64,000 nucleotides of DNA from Desulfovibrionaceae bacterium (GTDB taxonomy: Bacteria; Desulfobacterota; Desulfovibrionia; Desulfovibrionales; Desulfovibrionaceae). The notes under the pieces were generated by a model. It saw only the letters and a program-made list of their open reading frames with translations, was not told the origin of the DNA and made no database searches. Position 1 is the stretch's first letter; each line of letters starts with the position of its first letter. The position numbers and the translations under genes were made by a program. The DNA is taken from the NCBI GenBank assembly GCA_015709315.1, contig JACCQI010000003.1, positions 62,001-126,000 of the forward strand, written 5' to 3'. Shown here piece after piece: positions 51,575-59,564 of this stretch.

Positions 51575-53683
51575 ATGGCCGAATTCATACTGGAAATCGG
51601 AACCGAGGAAATGCCCGCCCGCTTCGTGCCGAAGCTGGCCGCCGAACTGGAGGCCGCCTTTGCCAAGGGGCTTGAAGCGTCCATGGTCGAGTTCGAGGGC
51701 GTCAAGTGCTATGCCACCCCGCGCCGCATCACCGCGCACGTCCTTTCCCTGGCACTGGCGCAGAAGCAGGAGGAGGAGACCGTCACCGGGCCTCCGGTCC
51801 GCATCGCCTATGACGGCGACGGCAACCTGACCAAGGCGGGCGCGGGATTTGCCAAGACGCAGGGCGTTGCCGAGGATGCGCTGTTCAAGATGGAGACCGG
51901 CAAGGGCGAATACCTGGCGGCCAGGAAGACCGTGGGCGGCGGCAAAACCGCCGATGTCCTGCCGGAGCTGTGCATCAAGTGTGTGGAATCTCTTTCCTTT
52001 CCCAAGAAGATGCATTGGGGCGATTACAATTTTACCTTTGGCCGCCCCGTGCGCTGGGTCCTGGCCCTGCTCGACGCCGACGTGATCGAGTTCACCCTGG
52101 AGAATCTGACTTCCGGCCGCGAGACGCGCGGCCACCGCGTCATGGGGCCCGGCCCGTTCTCCGTGAATTCCGCTGCCGAATATTTTTCCGTCATCGAGAA
52201 CGACTGCAAGGTGGTCATCGACCCCGAGGTCCGCAAGCAGACCATCGTGTCCGAGGGCAACCGCCTGGCTTCGGAGCTGGGCGGCGAGATCGTCTGGGAC
52301 GAAGGGCTGCTGGACGAGGTCGCCAACCTGGTCGAGTACCCCAAGCCGATCATCGGCGACATCGACAAGCTGTATCTCGAACTGCCGCGCGAGGTCCTGC
52401 TGACCTCCATGCAGTCCCATCAGAAATCCTTTGGCGTGCAGGGACCGGACGGCAAGCTGCTGCCTCATTTCCTGACCACCCTGAATTTGGAGCCCAAGGA
52501 CGTGGCCCTGGTCAAGAAGGGCTGGGAGCGCGTGCTCAAGGCCCGTCTTGAGGACGCCCGCTTCTTCTGGGAGGCGGATTGCAAGGTGGACATGAACGTC
52601 TGGCTGGACAAGCTGGAAAACGTGGTCTTCCTCGGCCCGCTGGGTTCGGTGGGGGACAAGTCCCGCCGCATCGAGACCCTGTGCCGCAAGCTGGCCGAAG
52701 CGCTCAGCGAATCGCAGTCCATCCTGCCCGGCGGAATCGAGCGGTACGCCCGTGCGGGCCGGTTGGCCAAGGCGGACCTGGTGTCCGAAATGGTCATCGA
52801 GTTCGACAGCCTCCAGGGCAAGATGGGCGGCATCTACGCCGAACGCGCCGGAAAGGGTGAGATCGTGTCCCAGGGCATCTACGAGCAGTACCTGCCCGCC
52901 GGTCCCGACACCCCGGTGCCGTCCAGTTTGGCCGGTGCCCTGGTCTCCATGGCGGACAAGGTCGACACCATGGCCGGTTGCTTCGGCCTGGGCAAGGTGC
53001 CCACCGGTGCCAACGACCCGTATGCCCTGCGCCGCTGCGCCCTGGGCATCGCCCGCATCATCATGGAGCACGGCCTGGACGTGGACCTGGAGCGGCTTCT
53101 GGTCTCGGCGCAGGAGGCATACTCCGGCGTCAAGTGGAAGGTCGAACCGTCCGAGGCCTTGAAAAAACTGGAGGATTTCTTCGCACAGCGTCTGCGCTCC
53201 CTGTTCACCGGGCAGGGCTTCGACACCCGCGTGGTGGACGCCGCGTTGGGTGCCGGGTTCAACGACATCCGCACCCTCAAGGCCCGCCTGGAAGCGCTTT
53301 CCGAATTCAGCAAGGTGGACGGCTTCGAGCAGTCCGTGCTGACCTTCAAGCGCGCTGCCAACATCATCCGCAAGCAGGGTGACGAGGCCGGGCAGGAACT
53401 CACCGGCAGCTACGACGCCGACCTGTTCGACGGCGACCACGAGCAAGCCTTCGGCTCCAAGCTGGAAGAGGTGGCCCCCCGGTTTGACGACCTGTGGGAA
53501 CACGATGATTTCGCGGGGCTTTTCGCCTTGCTCGGCGAGCTGCGGCCTTCGGTGGACGGATTCTTCGACAACGTCATGGTCATGTGCGACGATGCCGCCG
53601 TGCGGCTGAATCGGTTGAATTTGCTCAAGGCCCTGGTGGATCGCCTGGGTCGGCTGGCGGACTTCAACGCATTGCAGGTATAG
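51575..53683 (+). CDS. glyS: Glycyl-tRNA synthetase, beta subunit
   Basis: Provides tRNA recognition for the alpha subunit. The 702-residue protein starts MAEFILEIGTEEMPARFVPK, typical of GlyS, and continues with KMHWGDYNFTFGRPVRWVLALLD and MQSHQKSFGVQ. The C-terminal part has a DALR-like anticodon-binding region (residues 570-690, with FFDNVMVMCDDAAVRLNRLNLL). All parts are intact. It is the last gene of the mfd-rodZ-recO operon; a strong promoter for rpsT follows. Confidence 0.97.
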   Translation: MAEFILEIGTEEMPARFVPKLAAELEAAFAKGLEASMVEFEGVKCYATPRRITAHVLSLALAQKQEEETVTGPPVRIAYDGDGNLTKAGAGFAKTQGVAEDALFKMETGKGEYLAARKTVGGGKTADVLPELCIKCVESLSFPKKMHWGDYNFTFGRPVRWVLALLDADVIEFTLENLTSGRETRGHRVMGPGPFSVNSAAEYFSVIENDCKVVIDPEVRKQTIVSEGNRLASELGGEIVWDEGLLDEVANLVEYPKPIIGDIDKLYLELPREVLLTSMQSHQKSFGVQGPDGKLLPHFLTTLNLEPKDVALVKKGWERVLKARLEDARFFWEADCKVDMNVWLDKLENVVFLGPLGSVGDKSRRIETLCRKLAEALSESQSILPGGIERYARAGRLAKADLVSEMVIEFDSLQGKMGGIYAERAGKGEIVSQGIYEQYLPAGPDTPVPSSLAGALVSMADKVDTMAGCFGLGKVPTGANDPYALRRCALGIARIIMEHGLDVDLERLLVSAQEAYSGVKWKVEPSEALKKLEDFFAQRLRSLFTGQGFDTRVVDAALGAGFNDIRTLKARLEALSEFSKVDGFEQSVLTFKRAANIIRKQGDEAGQELTGSYDADLFDGDHEQAFGSKLEEVAPRFDDLWEHDDFAGLFALLGELRPSVDGFFDNVMVMCDDAAVRLNRLNLLKALVDRLGRLADFNALQV

Positions 53684-53701
53684 GTTGGAACCAGAAAAGG
53701 C

Positions 53702-53729
53702 TTGACATCGGAGGGAGAGTCCATATAAA
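53702..53729 (+). promoter_or_regulatory. Strong sigma-70 promoter for rpsT
   Basis: TTGACA (53702-53707) and TATAAA (53724-53729) are separated by 16 bases, close to consensus. Transcription should start near 53736, leaving a leader of about 65 bases. An 8-bp inverted repeat, AGGGAGAG (53712-53719) and CTCTCCCT (53733-53740), straddles the -10 box and could be an operator. Confidence 0.8.
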
Positions 53730-53800
53730 AAGCTCTCCCTTTGGGGAAAATAGCATACATACGTATTTTACTACGATAAGAAAGATCAGGAGAAACGACA

Positions 53801-54064
53801 TTGGCTAATCACAAATCCGCACTGAAGAGGCATCGTCAGAGCTTGAAGCGTCGCGCCCGCAACCGCGTTTCCAAGACCCGCATCAAGAACACCGTCAAGG
53901 CTGTTCGTCTGGCCATCGAGGAAAACGACGCCGCAAAGGCGCAGGAGGCCTTGCAGGCCGCTACCGCCGTTCTGGACAAGGCCGCCCGCAAGAAGGTCAT
54001 CCACGACCGCCAGGCCCAGCGCCGCATTTCCCGCCTCCAGGCCGCCGTCAACAAGATCGCCTAA
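53801..54064 (+). CDS. rpsT: Ribosomal protein S20
   Basis: Primary 16S-binding protein of the 30S subunit. The 87-residue product is very basic: [21 protein letters not shown], then [12 protein letters not shown] and [24 protein letters not shown]. The start codon is TTG, as in E. coli rpsT, where the UUG start is tied to autogenous control. AGGAG lies eight bases upstream. It is alone between a strong promoter and a strong terminator. Confidence 0.97.
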
Positions 54065-54089
54065 AGGCGTTCTCCAGTCAGCATATCTT

Positions 54090-54120
54090 GCCCGCCGCAC
54101 GCGTGTGCGGCGGGCTTTTT
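54090..54120 (+). terminator. Intrinsic terminator after rpsT
   Basis: GCCCGCCGCAC (54090-54100) pairs exactly with GTGCGGCGGGC (54105-54115), followed by five T. Confidence 0.92.
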
Positions 54121-54136
54121 GCGTTGGATCACGGGC

Positions 54137-54811
54137 TTAGCGCCCTTGGTCCGCGATATCCCGGAGCGCCTTCTCGTCGAGGATGGTGATCTGACTGCCG
54201 TTGATATTGAGGATGCCCTCATCCGTAAACCGTTTGAAAATACGGGATAATGTTTCCTGAATGGTGCCGAGGTACAGGGCGATCTGGCCCTTGGGCAGGT
54301 CGAGCCGGAGGGTTTCCGAATCCTGGGACGAGCGCAGGAGCATGAGGTAGGCGGCCACCCGTGACGGCGTTTCCTTGAGGCTCAGGTCGTCGATCTTGGC
54401 GACCAGGATACGCAGCCGCTGCGAGAGCATGGCCATCATCTTCATGGCCATGTCCGGGTCCTCGCGGAGCACCTTCCGGAACCCGTCGCGGGGAAAGAAC
54501 AGGACCTCGCAGTCGTCCAGGGCCTCGCATTGGGCCGGGAACGTGGTCCCCTGGAACATGGGCACTTCGCCCACGGCCTCGCCCGGGCCGAAGACGTGCA
54601 GGATCTGCTCCTTGCCGGACGGGGACGAGCGGAAGACCTTGACCCGGCCGGAAACCGTCGCATAGAAGCCGTCGGCCGGGGTATCGGCCAGGAACAAGGT
54701 CTCTCCCTTGCCGAATCTTTTCATCACCGACGCGTCCGCGAGCCGGGCGCAGTTCTCCTCGGGCAATCCCTCGAAAAAAGTGATCGTCTTCACCGCTGCC
54801 AGTTTGTTCAT
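54137..54811 (-). CDS. Crp/Fnr-family transcriptional regulator
   Basis: A 224-residue regulator with an N-terminal cyclic-nucleotide-binding fold (residues 12-125, with GLPEENCARLAD and LHVFGPGEAVGEVPMFQG), a long dimer helix and a C-terminal winged helix. The recognition helix reads LGTIQETLSRIFKRF, with Glu and Ser-Arg in the same places as FNR (E-x-x-SR), so TTGA-type half sites are expected. The N-terminal four-Cys cluster motif of FNR is absent, which points to an HcpR- or NnrR-like sensor of nitric oxide, nitrite or redox. It is divergent from the 54.9-58 kb redox genes. Confidence 0.9.
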   Translation of the reverse strand: MNKLAAVKTITFFEGLPEENCARLADASVMKRFGKGETLFLADTPADGFYATVSGRVKVFRSSPSGKEQILHVFGPGEAVGEVPMFQGTTFPAQCEALDDCEVLFFPRDGFRKVLREDPDMAMKMMAMLSQRLRILVAKIDDLSLKETPSRVAAYLMLLRSSQDSETLRLDLPKGQIALYLGTIQETLSRIFKRFTDEGILNINGSQITILDEKALRDIADQGR

Positions 54812-54849
54812 TTTATCATATGCGCCTTGTTTTATTTTGATATGGTAAT

Positions 54850-54863
54850 TTGACCTAAGTCAT
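54850..54863. promoter_or_regulatory. Crp/Fnr-type palindrome in the divergent promoter
   Basis: TTGAC-CTAA-GTCAT matches the five-four-five layout of Crp/Fnr sites with one mismatched base at the end. It lies 45 bases upstream of the regulator gene start and overlaps an ATG at 54862, which argues for the later start of the membrane iron-sulfur gene. Confidence 0.55.
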
Positions 54864-54897
54864 GGGCCTCGTCAAAAAAAATCTCCATCGTGGGGCC

Positions 54898-56229
54898 ATG
54901 GAGACCGGAAACGTGCGCGCATACCGCCTGATTATACCGTTTTTCGCCATGCTGCTTTTGGCGTCCCACGCCTTGCGGCGCGGCGACGTCGGCTTGGCCG
55001 CTTGCCTGGCCGTCATGTCCGGGCTGTTGTTCACCCGCAGGGCCTGGGTCCGGCCGACAGCGGCCGCCGTATTGGTCGTGGGCGGCTGGATATGGGCCGA
55101 TGCCCTGGTCAATCTGGTTTCCATCCGCCAGGCCCTGGGCCTCCCCTGGGCGCGGCTGGCAACCATCATGTGCGGGGTCATTCTGCTGGACGGCCTGGCC
55201 CTGGCGGTTCTGCTCGGCCAGGGGACCGAGCGGCTTTTCAATCGGGGGGCGGATCGCGCCTGGGCGCGCGCCGGAATGTTCGCCCTGACGGTCTTCGGTC
55301 TGGCCATGGCCCGGCATCACGTGCCGTTTCCCGTGCTGTTGGCCGACCGCTACTGGCCGGGATGGGGCTGGTTCGAGATATTCGGCCTGTCCCTCTACGC
55401 CCAATGGGTGGGCGGCCTGATGCTGCGCCCGGAGAACCATCGAAAGCTCAGGCCGCGCATCTGGGGGCTGTTTTCCCTCGTTTTCTTTCTCCAACTGGGG
55501 CTGGGCCTTCTCGGCATGGACAGGATGCTCATGACCGGGGACCTGCATTTGCCGGTTCCGGCCCTGATCGCGGCCGGGCCGGTCTTTCGCGGCGGCGGCT
55601 ATTTCATGCTCGTCCTGTTTTCCGTGACCGTGCTCCTGGCCGGCCCGGCCTGGTGCAGCCATCTCTGCTACATCGGCGCCTGGGACGACGCCATGAGCCG
55701 TCTGGCGGGCCGTCCAGCCACCCAGGGGCCCCTGCGCGGACTGAGCGTCGCCGGACGCGGCCTGACCCTTATCCTGGCCGTTGGCGGGGCATACGCGCTG
55801 CGCGCCATGGGCGTGCCCGCTGCCACGGCCGTCCTGTTCGGGGCCGGTTTCGGCCTGGTCGGCGTGGGAGTCATGGTTTTCGCTTCCCGCAGGGCAGGGG
55901 CCATGGTCCACTGCACCGCGTTCTGCCCCATGGGGCTGGCGGCCAATGTCTTCGGCAGGCTTTCGCCGTGGCGCATCCGCATCGGCGCGGACTGCACCCG
56001 GTGCGGGGCCTGTTTCGCCCTGTGCCGGTACGGCGCGCTGGACGAAGCCAGGGTGAAGCGGGGCGTTCCGGCGCTGTCCTGCACCTTGTGCGGGGACTGC
56101 GTGTCCGCCTGCGCGCACAACCAGATCGGCTACCGTTTTCCGGGACTGTCCGGCGATCATGCCCGGACGTTGTTCATTGTTTTAGCGGTTGCGCTGCACG
56201 CCATGTTTTTGGGCGTGGCGCGAATTTAA
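54898..56229 (+). CDS. Membrane protein with two 4Fe-4S motifs (NosR/NapH/CcoG-like)
   Basis: A 443-residue membrane protein with about ten hydrophobic segments and a cytoplasmic ferredoxin-like part at residues 360-415. The cluster motifs are CTRCGACFALC and CTLCGDCVSAC, and HCTAFCPMG before them is the CP motif of NapH/NosR/RdxA-type proteins. It probably moves electrons from the membrane quinone pool to the ferredoxin encoded next. The longest reading starts at ATG 54862, inside the palindrome; ATG 54898 is preferred. Confidence 0.85.
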   Translation: METGNVRAYRLIIPFFAMLLLASHALRRGDVGLAACLAVMSGLLFTRRAWVRPTAAAVLVVGGWIWADALVNLVSIRQALGLPWARLATIMCGVILLDGLALAVLLGQGTERLFNRGADRAWARAGMFALTVFGLAMARHHVPFPVLLADRYWPGWGWFEIFGLSLYAQWVGGLMLRPENHRKLRPRIWGLFSLVFFLQLGLGLLGMDRMLMTGDLHLPVPALIAAGPVFRGGGYFMLVLFSVTVLLAGPAWCSHLCYIGAWDDAMSRLAGRPATQGPLRGLSVAGRGLTLILAVGGAYALRAMGVPAATAVLFGAGFGLVGVGVMVFASRRAGAMVHCTAFCPMGLAANVFGRLSPWRIRIGADCTRCGACFALCRYGALDEARVKRGVPALSCTLCGDCVSACAHNQIGYRFPGLSGDHARTLFIVLAVALHAMFLGVARI

Positions 56230-56258
56230 AAATAAAATGAAATAAAGAGGATATCATT

Positions 56259-57041
56259 ATGTTGAGCACAAGAAAAATGATCACCATCGACGAGGACCTG
56301 TGCAACGGCTGCGGCCAGTGCGTGCCCGCCTGCGAAGAGGGGGCCCTGGCCATCGTCGACGGCAAGGCCCGGCTGGTCAAGGAAATATACTGCGACGGCC
56401 TGGGCGCGTGCCTGGGCGATTGTCCCACCGGGGCGCTCAAGGTCGAGGTGCGCAAGGCCGAGGACTTTGACCCCGCGGCCGTGACCGAACATTTGAAGGC
56501 CCAGGGCCGTGCGGTCCCGAACCACATGCCCGATCCCGCCAGCCTGCGCATGGGCGACACGCCCAGGCCCCCGAGCGGCTGCCCCGGCGCGGCGCTGCAA
56601 ACCATGACCCCCTGCGGCCGGGCCAACGTACCCTCCGTGCAGCTCGCCGGTTCCGCGCTTTCCCACTGGCCGGTCCAGCTCCGCCTGGTGCCGCCCACCG
56701 CGCCGTTTCTCAAGAACGCCGATTTGCTTTTGACCGCCGACTGCGTGCCCGTGGCCATGCCTGGCTATCACGGCGAGTTCGTGCCCGGCCGGGTCGTGCT
56801 CATGGGTTGTCCCAAGTTCGACGACCAGATGGCATATGTGGAAAAATTGGCCGATATCATTGCCGAAAATGAACTGAAATCCATCACCGTCCTGGAGATG
56901 GAGGTGCCGTGCTGCTCGTCCATGAGCGTTATCCTGAACGAGGCGGTGAAGCGGGCCGGGAAGCCGATGGGTGCCGTCCGCGCGACCGTGGCCCGCACCG
57001 GCGAGGTGCTGGAAACCGCGCCCCTGCGACTGGGCGCATAG
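56259..57041 (+). CDS. 4Fe-4S ferredoxin-type iron-sulfur protein
   Basis: A 260-residue soluble protein. The N-terminal 70 residues form a two-cluster ferredoxin domain: CNGCGQCVPAC and CDGLGACLGDCPTGAL, with the second motif having the longer spacing. The rest (residues 100-255) has extra cysteines in PSGCPG, PCG, ADC, MGCPKF and EVPCCSS. The family is often found next to hybrid-cluster protein genes in anaerobes; no hcp is here. It may be an electron donor to the siroheme reductase. The start has GAGGATATC upstream. Confidence 0.87.
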   Translation: MLSTRKMITIDEDLCNGCGQCVPACEEGALAIVDGKARLVKEIYCDGLGACLGDCPTGALKVEVRKAEDFDPAAVTEHLKAQGRAVPNHMPDPASLRMGDTPRPPSGCPGAALQTMTPCGRANVPSVQLAGSALSHWPVQLRLVPPTAPFLKNADLLLTADCVPVAMPGYHGEFVPGRVVLMGCPKFDDQMAYVEKLADIIAENELKSITVLEMEVPCCSSMSVILNEAVKRAGKPMGAVRATVARTGEVLETAPLRLGA

Positions 57042-57052
57042 GAGGAAAGGCC

Positions 57053-57370
57053 ATGAGGAAGATCGAACTCTATAAGGAACATGGTTTCAAGGACTTGACC
57101 TTTTCCAATTATCTGGTGCATGAGTCCGAGTTCATGAAGGTCATCAATTTCAATTTTCGGGCCGGGCAGAAGCTGCCCGTTCATTCCCACGACCTGGAAG
57201 GGGAGTTGACCCTGACCGTGCTGGAGGGGCGGGGGGAGTTCCTGGCCGCCGACGGCGCGGCCATGCCCGCCGAACCCGGCGATGTGCTGGTCTCGGGCAT
57301 TGCCGAGCCGCACGGCGTGAGCGCCATCACGGACATGCGTGTGCTGGTAACCATAGCCCCGCCTATCTGA
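57053..57370 (+). CDS. Cupin-domain protein
   Basis: A 105-residue single-cupin protein. Motif 1 is GQKLPVHSHDLEGELTLTVLEG (residues 38-59, with the two His and Glu ligands), and motif 2 is PGDVLVSGIAEPHGV (His). Such small cupins bind a metal and either sense or modify small molecules. GGAGGAAAGG precedes the ATG. It lies 11 bases after the ferredoxin gene and one base before the siroheme reductase gene, so the four genes form one operon. Confidence 0.88.
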   Translation: MRKIELYKEHGFKDLTFSNYLVHESEFMKVINFNFRAGQKLPVHSHDLEGELTLTVLEGRGEFLAADGAAMPAEPGDVLVSGIAEPHGVSAITDMRVLVTIAPPI

Positions 57371-57371
57371 T

Positions 57372-58031
57372 ATGGAACTGAAAGAATTCATTGAACAATT
57401 GCCGAAACGAGCCGTCAGGGCGAAAAAGGACGGCACCTATACCGTGACCCCGGGCATGCGCCAGGGCGTTTTGCCCGCCGGCCAGTTGGCGGCCATTGCC
57501 GGCGTCGTCGAGGAATACGGCCTGAAGGGCGTCCGTATCAGTACGGGCCAGCGGCTGGTGGTGGACGGCGTCCCCGGTGAAGTCCTGCCCGAGGTCGTGG
57601 AGAAGATCGGTCCCGTGGGGGACGTTTTCCGCAACAAGGTCCAGGCGTGCCAGGGCGTATCCGGCTGCAACCTGGGCCAGCGGGACTCCATGGGCGCGGC
57701 GGCCGCGCTGGAGGAGTTCCTGAAGGACCGGAAATTCGGCATCAAGCTCAAGGCCGGCGCGTCCGGTTGCCCCATGTGCTGCGCCGAGTCCATGATCCGC
57801 GACGTGGGGCTCATCGGCCGGAAGAACGGCTGGACCGTTTCATTCGGCGGCAACGGCGGCAGGAGGGCGCGCAAGGGCGACATCCTGGCCGTGGACGTTT
57901 CCAGGGAGGAAGCCTTCGCCGTCATCGGCAAGGCGCTGGATTATTATGCGGCCAATGCCCGGAACAAGGAGCGCACGGCCCGTTTCGTTGAACGGGTGGG
58001 CATAGATGCGGTCAAAGCCGCCATTCGTTAG
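57372..58031 (+). CDS. Small siroheme/4Fe-4S nitrite or sulfite reductase
   Basis: A 219-residue protein like the monomeric low-spin (assimilatory-type) sulfite reductase of Desulfovibrio vulgaris (about 24 kDa). It has one ferredoxin-like half (residues 1-75) and a siroheme-cluster half with the pattern CQGVSGC then GASGCPMCC, the C-x5-C ... C-x3-C set that holds the 4Fe-4S cluster linked to siroheme. Basic residues around RISTGQR fit anion binding. It would reduce sulfite or nitrite by six electrons; the physiological substrate is uncertain. Confidence 0.87.
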   Translation: MELKEFIEQLPKRAVRAKKDGTYTVTPGMRQGVLPAGQLAAIAGVVEEYGLKGVRISTGQRLVVDGVPGEVLPEVVEKIGPVGDVFRNKVQACQGVSGCNLGQRDSMGAAAALEEFLKDRKFGIKLKAGASGCPMCCAESMIRDVGLIGRKNGWTVSFGGNGGRRARKGDILAVDVSREEAFAVIGKALDYYAANARNKERTARFVERVGIDAVKAAIR

Positions 58032-58055
58032 AATTCATCCCGGTTTCCCCAAGCG

Positions 58056-58085
58056 GCGGCCCTGTCATGCAGGGCCGCTGTTTTT
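58056..58085 (+). terminator. Intrinsic terminator after the siroheme reductase
   Basis: GCGGCCCTG (58056-58064) pairs with CAGGGCCGC (58070-58078), five-base loop, then TGTTTTT. Confidence 0.88.
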
Positions 58086-58196
58086 CGTAACAAATGGATA
58101 TTATTGAACGGTGGGAAATTCCGGCATGTTGCGCTGACGGAAAAACCAGCGTACTAGATTTGGTGTTGCGAGTCTGATTTCACACGGGAGCATTAC

Positions 58197-59564
58197 TTGC
58201 GGGTCATCATCATCGGGGCCGGAGAGGTCGGATTTCATATTTCCCAGCGCCTAGCTGTCGAGAACAAGGAAGTCGTGGTCATCGACACCTCGGACGAGGC
58301 GTTGCGCAAGGTCGCGGAGACCTCCGACGTGCAGACGCTCCAGGGATCGGGCAGCAGCCCGCGCATGCTGGAGGACGCGGGCATCATGGAGGCCGACATC
58401 CTGCTGGCCGTCACCGACTCCGACGAGATCAATCTTCTGGCCTGTTTCTTTGCCGACATGCTCAACGACAAGATCACCAAGCTGGCGCGTGTTCGTGGCG
58501 AGAGGTACACGAATTACAAGCACTTGTTGACGGGTGAAGGGGCGAACATCACCAAGATCATCAACCCCGACGAAGAGGTCGTCAACTCGGTGCTGCGGCT
58601 CATGTCCGTGCCCGGGGCGGTGGAGATCAACGAGTTCGCGGGCGGCAAGATCAGGCTCATCGGCATTCACCTGCCCGAGAACAGTCCCATCCTGGGCAGC
58701 AAGCTCATTCATTTGCGGTCCAAGATCGGCGAGGACCTGGGCATTGTCATCGCGGCCATTGTGCGCGACGACCAGCTTATCATTCCCAGCGGCCTGGACG
58801 TCATCAAGAAGGACGACGTGGTCTATTTCGTCTGCGACATCCGCGACCAGGAGGAGATTCTCGAACGGCTGGGAATCTCCAGCGAGCCGGTGCGCGAGGT
58901 GATGATCATAGGCGGCGGCAACATCGGCTTCAAGCTGGCCAAGGCCTTGGACAACAAGTACTACCACACCCGGCTTTTGGAAAATCGCCAGGAGCGCTGC
59001 GAGTACCTGTCCGAGCATCTGGACCGGCCCATCGTGCTCATGGGAGACTCCACGGACCAGGAGATACTGCGAGAGGAGAACGTCCACGACATGGACATGG
59101 TCATCGCCGTGACGGGCGACGAGGAAACCAATATCCTGTCCTGTTTGCTGGCCAAGAGCCTGGGGGCCAAGAGCACGGTCACGCGGGTCAACAATTTCGG
59201 CTATATGCCGCTCATACAGCCCATCGGCATCGACTACGTGGTCTGTCCCAGGCTGTCGGCGATCAACTCGCTGCTGCACTTCATCCGGCGGGGCCGGATC
59301 ATGTCCTCGGTGTCCATCAAGGGCGAGGCCGCCGAGGCTCTGGAAACCGTGATTCTCGAGGATTCCCCCATCGTGGGCAAGATGGTCAAAGACCTCGACT
59401 TTCCGCGCGGCTGCCTGGTGCTTTGCTTCCAGCGGGGCGAGGACGTGCTTATTCCCCGCGGCGACACGCTGGTGAAACCCAACGACCGGTTGATCATTAT
59501 TTCCACCCGGCAGAACATTCCTAAGGTTGAAAAGGTCCTGACCACGAAAGTGGAGTTTTTCTAG
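58197..59564 (+). CDS. trkA: Trk system potassium transporter regulatory subunit TrkA
   Basis: The cytoplasmic NAD/ATP-binding gate of the TrkH potassium channel. The 455-residue protein has two RCK units: RCK-N with VIIIGAGEVGFHI and RCK-C (residues 140-220), then a second RCK-N with VMIIGGGNIGFKLA and RCK-C (residues 370-450). The TTG start at 58197 has GGGAG eight bases upstream. It ends directly at the trkH ATG with no gap. Confidence 0.95.
   Translation: MRVIIIGAGEVGFHISQRLAVENKEVVVIDTSDEALRKVAETSDVQTLQGSGSSPRMLEDAGIMEADILLAVTDSDEINLLACFFADMLNDKITKLARVRGERYTNYKHLLTGEGANITKIINPDEEVVNSVLRLMSVPGAVEINEFAGGKIRLIGIHLPENSPILGSKLIHLRSKIGEDLGIVIAAIVRDDQLIIPSGLDVIKKDDVVYFVCDIRDQEEILERLGISSEPVREVMIIGGGNIGFKLAKALDNKYYHTRLLENRQERCEYLSEHLDRPIVLMGDSTDQEILREENVHDMDMVIAVTGDEETNILSCLLAKSLGAKSTVTRVNNFGYMPLIQPIGIDYVVCPRLSAINSLLHFIRRGRIMSSVSIKGEAAEALETVILEDSPIVGKMVKDLDFPRGCLVLCFQRGEDVLIPRGDTLVKPNDRLIIISTRQNIPKVEKVLTTKVEFF

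Follow-up and report, generated by a model that had tools for sequence, protein, structure and literature searches.

We analysed a putative redox operon in a 64,000-nucleotide stretch of a Desulfovibrionaceae genome (3.28 Mb in 87 contigs); this whole stretch, G000:C27:62001-126000, is called the window below. Within it, a gene for a Crp/Fnr-family regulator is divergent from four redox genes, with an operator-like box in the shared promoter. The features are as follows.

54137..54811, minus strand: Crp/Fnr regulator, putatively of the HcpR type, 224 amino acids (cNMP_binding and HTH_Crp_2 in Pfam).
54850..54863, no strand assigned: operator-like box TTGACCTAAGTCAT, within the promoter region shared by the divergent genes and identical in 24 of 32 relatives.
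54913..56229 (longest open reading frame from 54862), plus strand: membrane iron-sulfur protein, NapH-like (Fer4_5 above cut-off).
56259..57041, plus strand: predicted FrdX-type ferredoxin with a cysteine-rich C-terminal domain, 260 amino acids (ferredoxin domain in Pfam; hcp/HcpR linkage elsewhere).
57053..57370, plus strand: cupin, 105 amino acids (Cupin_2).
57372..58031, plus strand: half-size siroheme [4Fe-4S] reductase of the 'first-copy' type, 219 amino acids (NIR_SIR_ferr and NIR_SIR).
58051..58084, plus strand: terminator-like hairpin with a U tract, 3′ of the last gene (-28.6 kcal/mol, z -4.99).

The initial annotation had assigned the five genes to named families, and all the open reading frames are present with Pfam domains that support each assignment. 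The gene set looks bounded on both sides, since terminator-like signals lie at both ends: the hairpin at 58051-58084, which is not among the sites listed by a consensus terminator scan, and a site at 54090-54115 between rpsT and the regulator gene, which that scan reported. A sigma-70 scan gave no promoter in 53700-58300, and Rfam gave no matches in 53600-58400.

The arrangement is conserved throughout the genus. We searched 36 genus genomes for the regulator and found an ortholog at E<1e-60 in 35, the 36th (G027) being 81% complete; locus stretches were then fetched from 32 relatives. Regulator, ferredoxin and cupin genes occur in all 32 loci (a contig end truncates one cupin gene, and two overlapping frames carry the regulator of L102); 31 loci have the membrane gene and 30 at least one siroheme gene, with a tandem second siroheme gene in 20. 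The flanks are also kept, rpsT on the regulator side in 31 of the 32 stretches and trkA on the other side in 26. The box at 54850-54863, where TTGACNNNNGTCAT has its single exact match within the window, holds its position in 32/32 relatives while the flanking bases drift; the eight relatives without the identical 14 bases all fit TTGAYYTRARTCAT. Conservation of the box is more than chance. The previously noted reading, a single regulated redox module with a box in the shared promoter, is well supported by the conservation of the locus.

The key link leads out of the window. The initial annotation had reported that no hcp gene is present; this holds for the window and fails for the genome, where hcp lies on another contig (C58:130-1719, minus strand) preceded by a variant of the same box, TTGACTAAAATCAT, so that the statement had hidden the connection. 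Over the 36 genus genomes, TTGACNNANGTCAWR has 127 matches against 35 for a reversed control. Of 42 short-class hcp rows, 32 (in 28 of 34 genomes) are preceded by it at a distance of no more than 200 bases, in 32/32 cases on the strand of the gene. The rows were taken by hand from the prismane-family table, with partial rows and full-length rows of ~445 bits or less left out and with one row entered as short-class (G028:C2) that really belongs to the large class. The spacing is 70-137 bases overall and 70-76 in 27 of the 32, counted to the start of the hcp profile match and not to the start codon. The chance expectation of TTGACNNANGTCAWR upstream is ~2e-4 per gene, and none of 26 large-class prismane-family rows has it within 200 bases. 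This control class and the tight spacing are telling, though the genomes are related and a binomial figure for the association is therefore not a real probability. Membership of the operon and hcp in one regulon is thus a well supported prediction from the shared sites. Some genus genomes have a second hcp, with a box TTGACCCAGGTCAAA 137 bases before the gene match (G004:C1:3344351, G006:C1:1988459 and G022:C10:5999).

The third gene of the set ties it to hcp a second time. By its ferredoxin domain and by the hcp/HcpR linkage of its relatives, the encoded ferredoxin can be assigned to the FrdX kind. One full-length FrdX is found in 34/36 genus genomes (G023 and G027, both ~80% complete, have none), the next matches in the genus being short ferredoxin-domain ones at 4.6e-9 or weaker; in the phylum sample, FrdX is present at 1e-20 in 171 of 247 genomes. 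The 1.5-kb flanks of 29 FrdX loci outside the genus contain hcp in 16 cases, a relative of the regulator in 5, a cupin gene in 3 and a siroheme gene in 2. In a wider set of 39 loci, hand-picked from the phylum FrdX matches with G047 and G071 added for their membrane gene, hcp is present in 17 loci, the regulator in 12, the cupin in 7, a siroheme gene in 4 and the membrane gene in 2. The order in locus L184 is regulator<-box->hcp-siroheme-frdX, and L182 shows the mirror image of it. Because the usual neighbour of FrdX is Hcp, the ferredoxin may serve Hcp too, or instead. A gene for an HD-domain protein of ~245 amino acids stands near frdX in 21 of the 39 wider non-genus loci (L168-L206; e.g. 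L170:5277-6005), in several of them between frdX and hcp or the box.

We aligned 27 FrdX sequences and kept 21, dropping rows whose coordinates ran into a stop codon, plus a small number of others. In these 21 rows an invariant leucine, Leu48, replaces the second cysteine of cluster motif II, and the C-terminal domain has five invariant cysteines (Cys108, 162, 184, 218 and 219). No PDB match to this domain was seen among the 60 listed of 123 matches; it matches no Pfam family in the first member, and all 11 families found over the 21 members are of ferredoxin type.

Features of the regulator point in the same direction. The recognition helix is FNR-like, as the initial annotation had it; it shows an E..SR pattern and no CRP-type arginine, and YLGTIQETLSRI is invariant in 33/33 genus rows. 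Its reading of the protein as lacking the FNR cysteines also stands: Cys21 is found in 2, Cys95 in 11 and Cys101 in 20 of the 33 rows, and with no conserved cysteine set there is no FNR-type cluster. Relatives of the regulator adjoin frdX or hcp in 12 of the 39 wider loci; eleven of them are 38-52% identical to the window protein and one (L201) 28%. At the place of CRP Arg180 the 12 linked regulators have Pro in 11 cases and Gln in one (L188), and the regulator of the window genus has Gln. His72 is present in 32/33 genus rows and 11/12 linked regulators, and is absent from both Crp/Fnr paralogs fetched from the same genome (C48 and C57). Domains, frdX/hcp linkage and box type all fit, which suggests that the regulator is of the HcpR type. 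In the regulator tree the two paralogs were unplaced, their branches being long. Met68 is a haem ligand in the Porphyromonas gingivalis HcpR (PMC12750200); its place may correspond to that of Gln69, which is Gln in 28/33 rows and His in 5.

Taken together, these results make it probable that the HcpR-type regulator and its divergent operon form the helper half of a nitrosative-stress regulon in which hcp and frdX are split between two loci. Nitrite, nitric oxide (NO) and sulfite had been put forward as alternative cues. By analogy with HcpR systems NO or nitrite is the likely one, favoured by the box held in common with hcp and by the FrdX-hcp-regulator linkage; nothing that we found points to sulfite. 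In the mechanism we infer, the regulator would sense NO, formed from nitrite or released by neighbours, perhaps by means of haem with the conserved His72 nearby, and would act, as activator or repressor, on boxes of the TTGAC-N4-GTCAT type ahead of this operon and of the distant hcp. Electrons would enter at the NapH-like membrane protein, either from a periplasmic donor or from the quinone pool, and be passed on to FrdX, which would reduce Hcp (NO to N2O), the half-size siroheme enzyme, or both; the latter may convert nitrite or hydroxylamine to ammonium, and the cupin would be accessory. The proposed chain from membrane to ferredoxin to siroheme enzyme is plausible. The fullest version, a two-halved, membrane-fed NO/nitrite detoxification system in which FrdX, with its unusual second cluster site and cysteine-rich C-terminal domain, is the hub that delivers quinol electrons both to the distant Hcp and to a siroheme nitrite/hydroxylamine reductase that replaces NrfA in most of the genus, is tentative and less likely than not.

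Several observations weigh against a split regulon of this kind. The hcp gene is not adjacent to the operon in its own genome, and among the 39 wider FrdX loci there are 22 in which no hcp was seen. The plain form of the box, TTGACNNNNGTCAW, is not rare: the genome has 6 matches to it and 3 to its reversed control. Matches with two mismatches are in any case more frequent in the window than expected (72 versus 39). A narrow pattern, TTGAYNNAARTCAW, gave 3 matches in 3.28 Mb versus 0 for its control (the box of this operon, the box before hcp and one site within a glycosyltransferase-like open reading frame), and it was chosen after both sites had been seen. The paralog C57, with the recognition helix GVTPETLSR, could bind the box. 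At the locus L099 the membrane and siroheme genes are lacking. The genome of the window has a single siroheme match, of the first-copy kind, the second copy being missing (58031-58197 compared with L071, L073 and L080), and the first-copy gene evolves fast. Structure predictions stayed below useful confidence for FrdX from its sequence alone (mean predicted local distance difference test score, pLDDT, 43.6) and for the siroheme protein with two relatives (pLDDT 52.4).

The membrane protein scores 53.6 bits against the curated napH model, whose cut-off is 213.05, so we call it NapH-like only, an assignment that its hydrophobic segments and cysteine pattern support. Its start was considered at ATG 54862, inside the box, and rejected: of 31 relatives, 18 keep that frame open, 12 have it out of register or interrupted by a stop, and 1 has no ATG there. 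GTG 54913, behind GGAG, is the likelier start, since many relatives have GGAG and a start codon at a like spacing. For the siroheme protein, the tree was built from 20 of the 31 first copies, 12 of the 20 second copies and 25 further sequences. The four cluster cysteines (Cys93, 99, 133 and 137; CX5C...CX3C) are invariant in all 57 rows, as are Lys127, Arg143 and Asp144. The 20 first copies split from the 37 other rows with support 100/98, the root being placed by midpoint only; the genus thus has a slow second copy, which groups with proteins of other genera, and a fast first copy. The window protein has Gly28 where Arg stands in 35/37 of the others and 15/20 first copies. The curated model that fits it best is the NirB nitrite reductase, at 145 bits against a cut-off of 578. 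In the PDB it comes closest to F420-dependent sulfite reductases and nitrite reductases; with such mixed relatives, sequence alone does not fix the substrate. The Desulfovibrio 24-kDa assimilatory-type sulfite reductase (DVU1597) is said to have the same size and domain pair.

Should Hcp be all that the membrane protein and FrdX serve, the siroheme protein would be a dispensable side enzyme or an NO sink, and not the terminal reductase of the chain. The faster evolution of first copies than of second ones fits such a role, as does the locus L099, where siroheme and membrane genes are both lacking; the second copy was not seen in 12 of the 32 relatives, L091, cut by a contig end, among them. 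We nevertheless consider this division of labour doubtful, for the cluster ligands and Lys127, Arg143 and Asp144 are invariant in 20/20 first copies, at least one siroheme copy is kept in 30/32 loci, and the siroheme gene stands between hcp and frdX in L182 and L184. It is improbable that another Crp/Fnr factor (C57 or C48, for example) is the main one to act at the box, or that the signal is a different one such as oxygen, carbon monoxide or redox state: the helix of C57 is similar and the box type alone names no factor, but in the loci of the genus the regulator gene diverges from the operon at the box, and the hcp/frdX-linked regulators resemble the regulator and have His72, which C48 and C57 are without. 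Slightly less probable still is a sulfite chain, in which the small siroheme enzyme would reduce or detoxify sulfite or serve assimilation and the regulator would answer sulfite or sulfur status, and which we kept as a weak rival, since family names are all that speaks for it (the siroheme family includes sulfite reductases, and F420-dependent ones are among the best PDB relatives), whereas the box shared with hcp, the FrdX/hcp linkage, the NirB model, though below cut-off, and the fact that sulfide is the product of a sulfate reducer's main pathway all count against it.

For the split nitrosative-stress regulon, the wider nitrogen-oxide context is also relevant. NrfA (PF02335) has no match in the genome, in a search with Escherichia coli as positive control; across the 36 genus genomes some match is found in 13 and a full-length one (>400 bits) in 6, so that 30 are without full-length NrfA. 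In G010 and G028 a pair of genes for an NrfH-type and an Hao-like cytochrome separates the operon from trkA, on the opposite strand, and G028 is without the membrane and siroheme genes at the locus. In all, pairs of NapC/NrfH-type and Hao-like multihaem cytochromes occur near frdX in four genomes, at L099:5101-7049, L097:1959-3921, L188:9608-11707 and L176:3-1600. In L188 (G047) a TTGACTTAAGTCAA box lies directly upstream of the pair, and no such box was found upstream of the pairs in L097, L099 and L176.

The locus bears on the electron donor of Hcp in anaerobes without Hcr, on the role of FrdX and on the substrate of small siroheme proteins in sulfate reducers. These can be tested together here, since all three come together behind a type of box shared with hcp, and a full-length NrfA was found in few genomes of the genus. 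Resistance of sulfate reducers to nitrite and NO bears on the use of nitrate treatment against souring and corrosion.

The general kind of system is already known, as a predicted HcpR-controlled 'sulfite/nitrite reductase, polyferredoxin' operon (2004) and an hcp without adjacent frdX in Desulfovibrio gigas are both in print in the accounts cited below; among open-licence papers, judged from title and abstract, none was recognised as an account of this operon in the genus. In the passages cited, the delta-proteobacterial HcpR regulon with FNR-like boxes (PMC1274295, PMC545781) resembles the system here in the absence of a CRP-type Arg180, in a TTGAC-N4-GTCAA-type box and in having hcp and frdX as targets. 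Delta-proteobacterial HcpR is there given Ser or Pro at the Arg180 place and the box wyTTGACnnnnGTCAArw (PMC1274295), whereas here the helix has Gln and the box ends in TCAT, its last base T and not A; hcp and frdX are also at separate loci here, with the membrane iron-sulfur, cupin and siroheme genes beside frdX. The operon annotated 'putative sulfite/nitrite reductase, polyferredoxin' in D. vulgaris (206515-206516) and D. desulfuricans (394469-394470) was listed in 2004 as a predicted HcpR target, the D. vulgaris one being nitrite-induced according to a personal communication cited there (PMC545781). Set beside our locus by description only, it is similar in being a predicted HcpR-controlled siroheme-type reductase with a polyferredoxin; it differs in its CRP-like box, and no FrdX, cupin or regulator is listed in it in that table of targets.

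In Clostridioides difficile, according to the part of the report cited, frdX and hcp are NO-induced through HcpR and frdX knock-down makes cells NO-sensitive (PMC12915319), so that by description frdX is likewise under HcpR and needed against NO. The C. difficile frdX adjoins hcp, unlike here, that part of the report mentions no siroheme or membrane gene, and it calls the exact function of FrdX unclear (PMC12915319). DEACI_1836-1837 of Acididesulfobacillus acetoxydans, a small NIR_SIR protein beside a [4Fe-4S] ferredoxin, is up on nitrate and was proposed to be a ferredoxin-dependent nitrite reductase; it differs in its 300 amino acids and single-cluster ferredoxin, and no HcpR box or FrdX is shown in the section cited (PMC10949509). 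D. gigas is described as having a monocistronic hcp without adjacent frdX, as here, with hcpR beside hcp (PMC4287179), where in our genus the regulator is beside frdX. What appears new is thus the arrangement itself: frdX has the regulator and the membrane, cupin and siroheme genes gathered around it, and hcp is at another place in the genome, preceded by a box of the same type.

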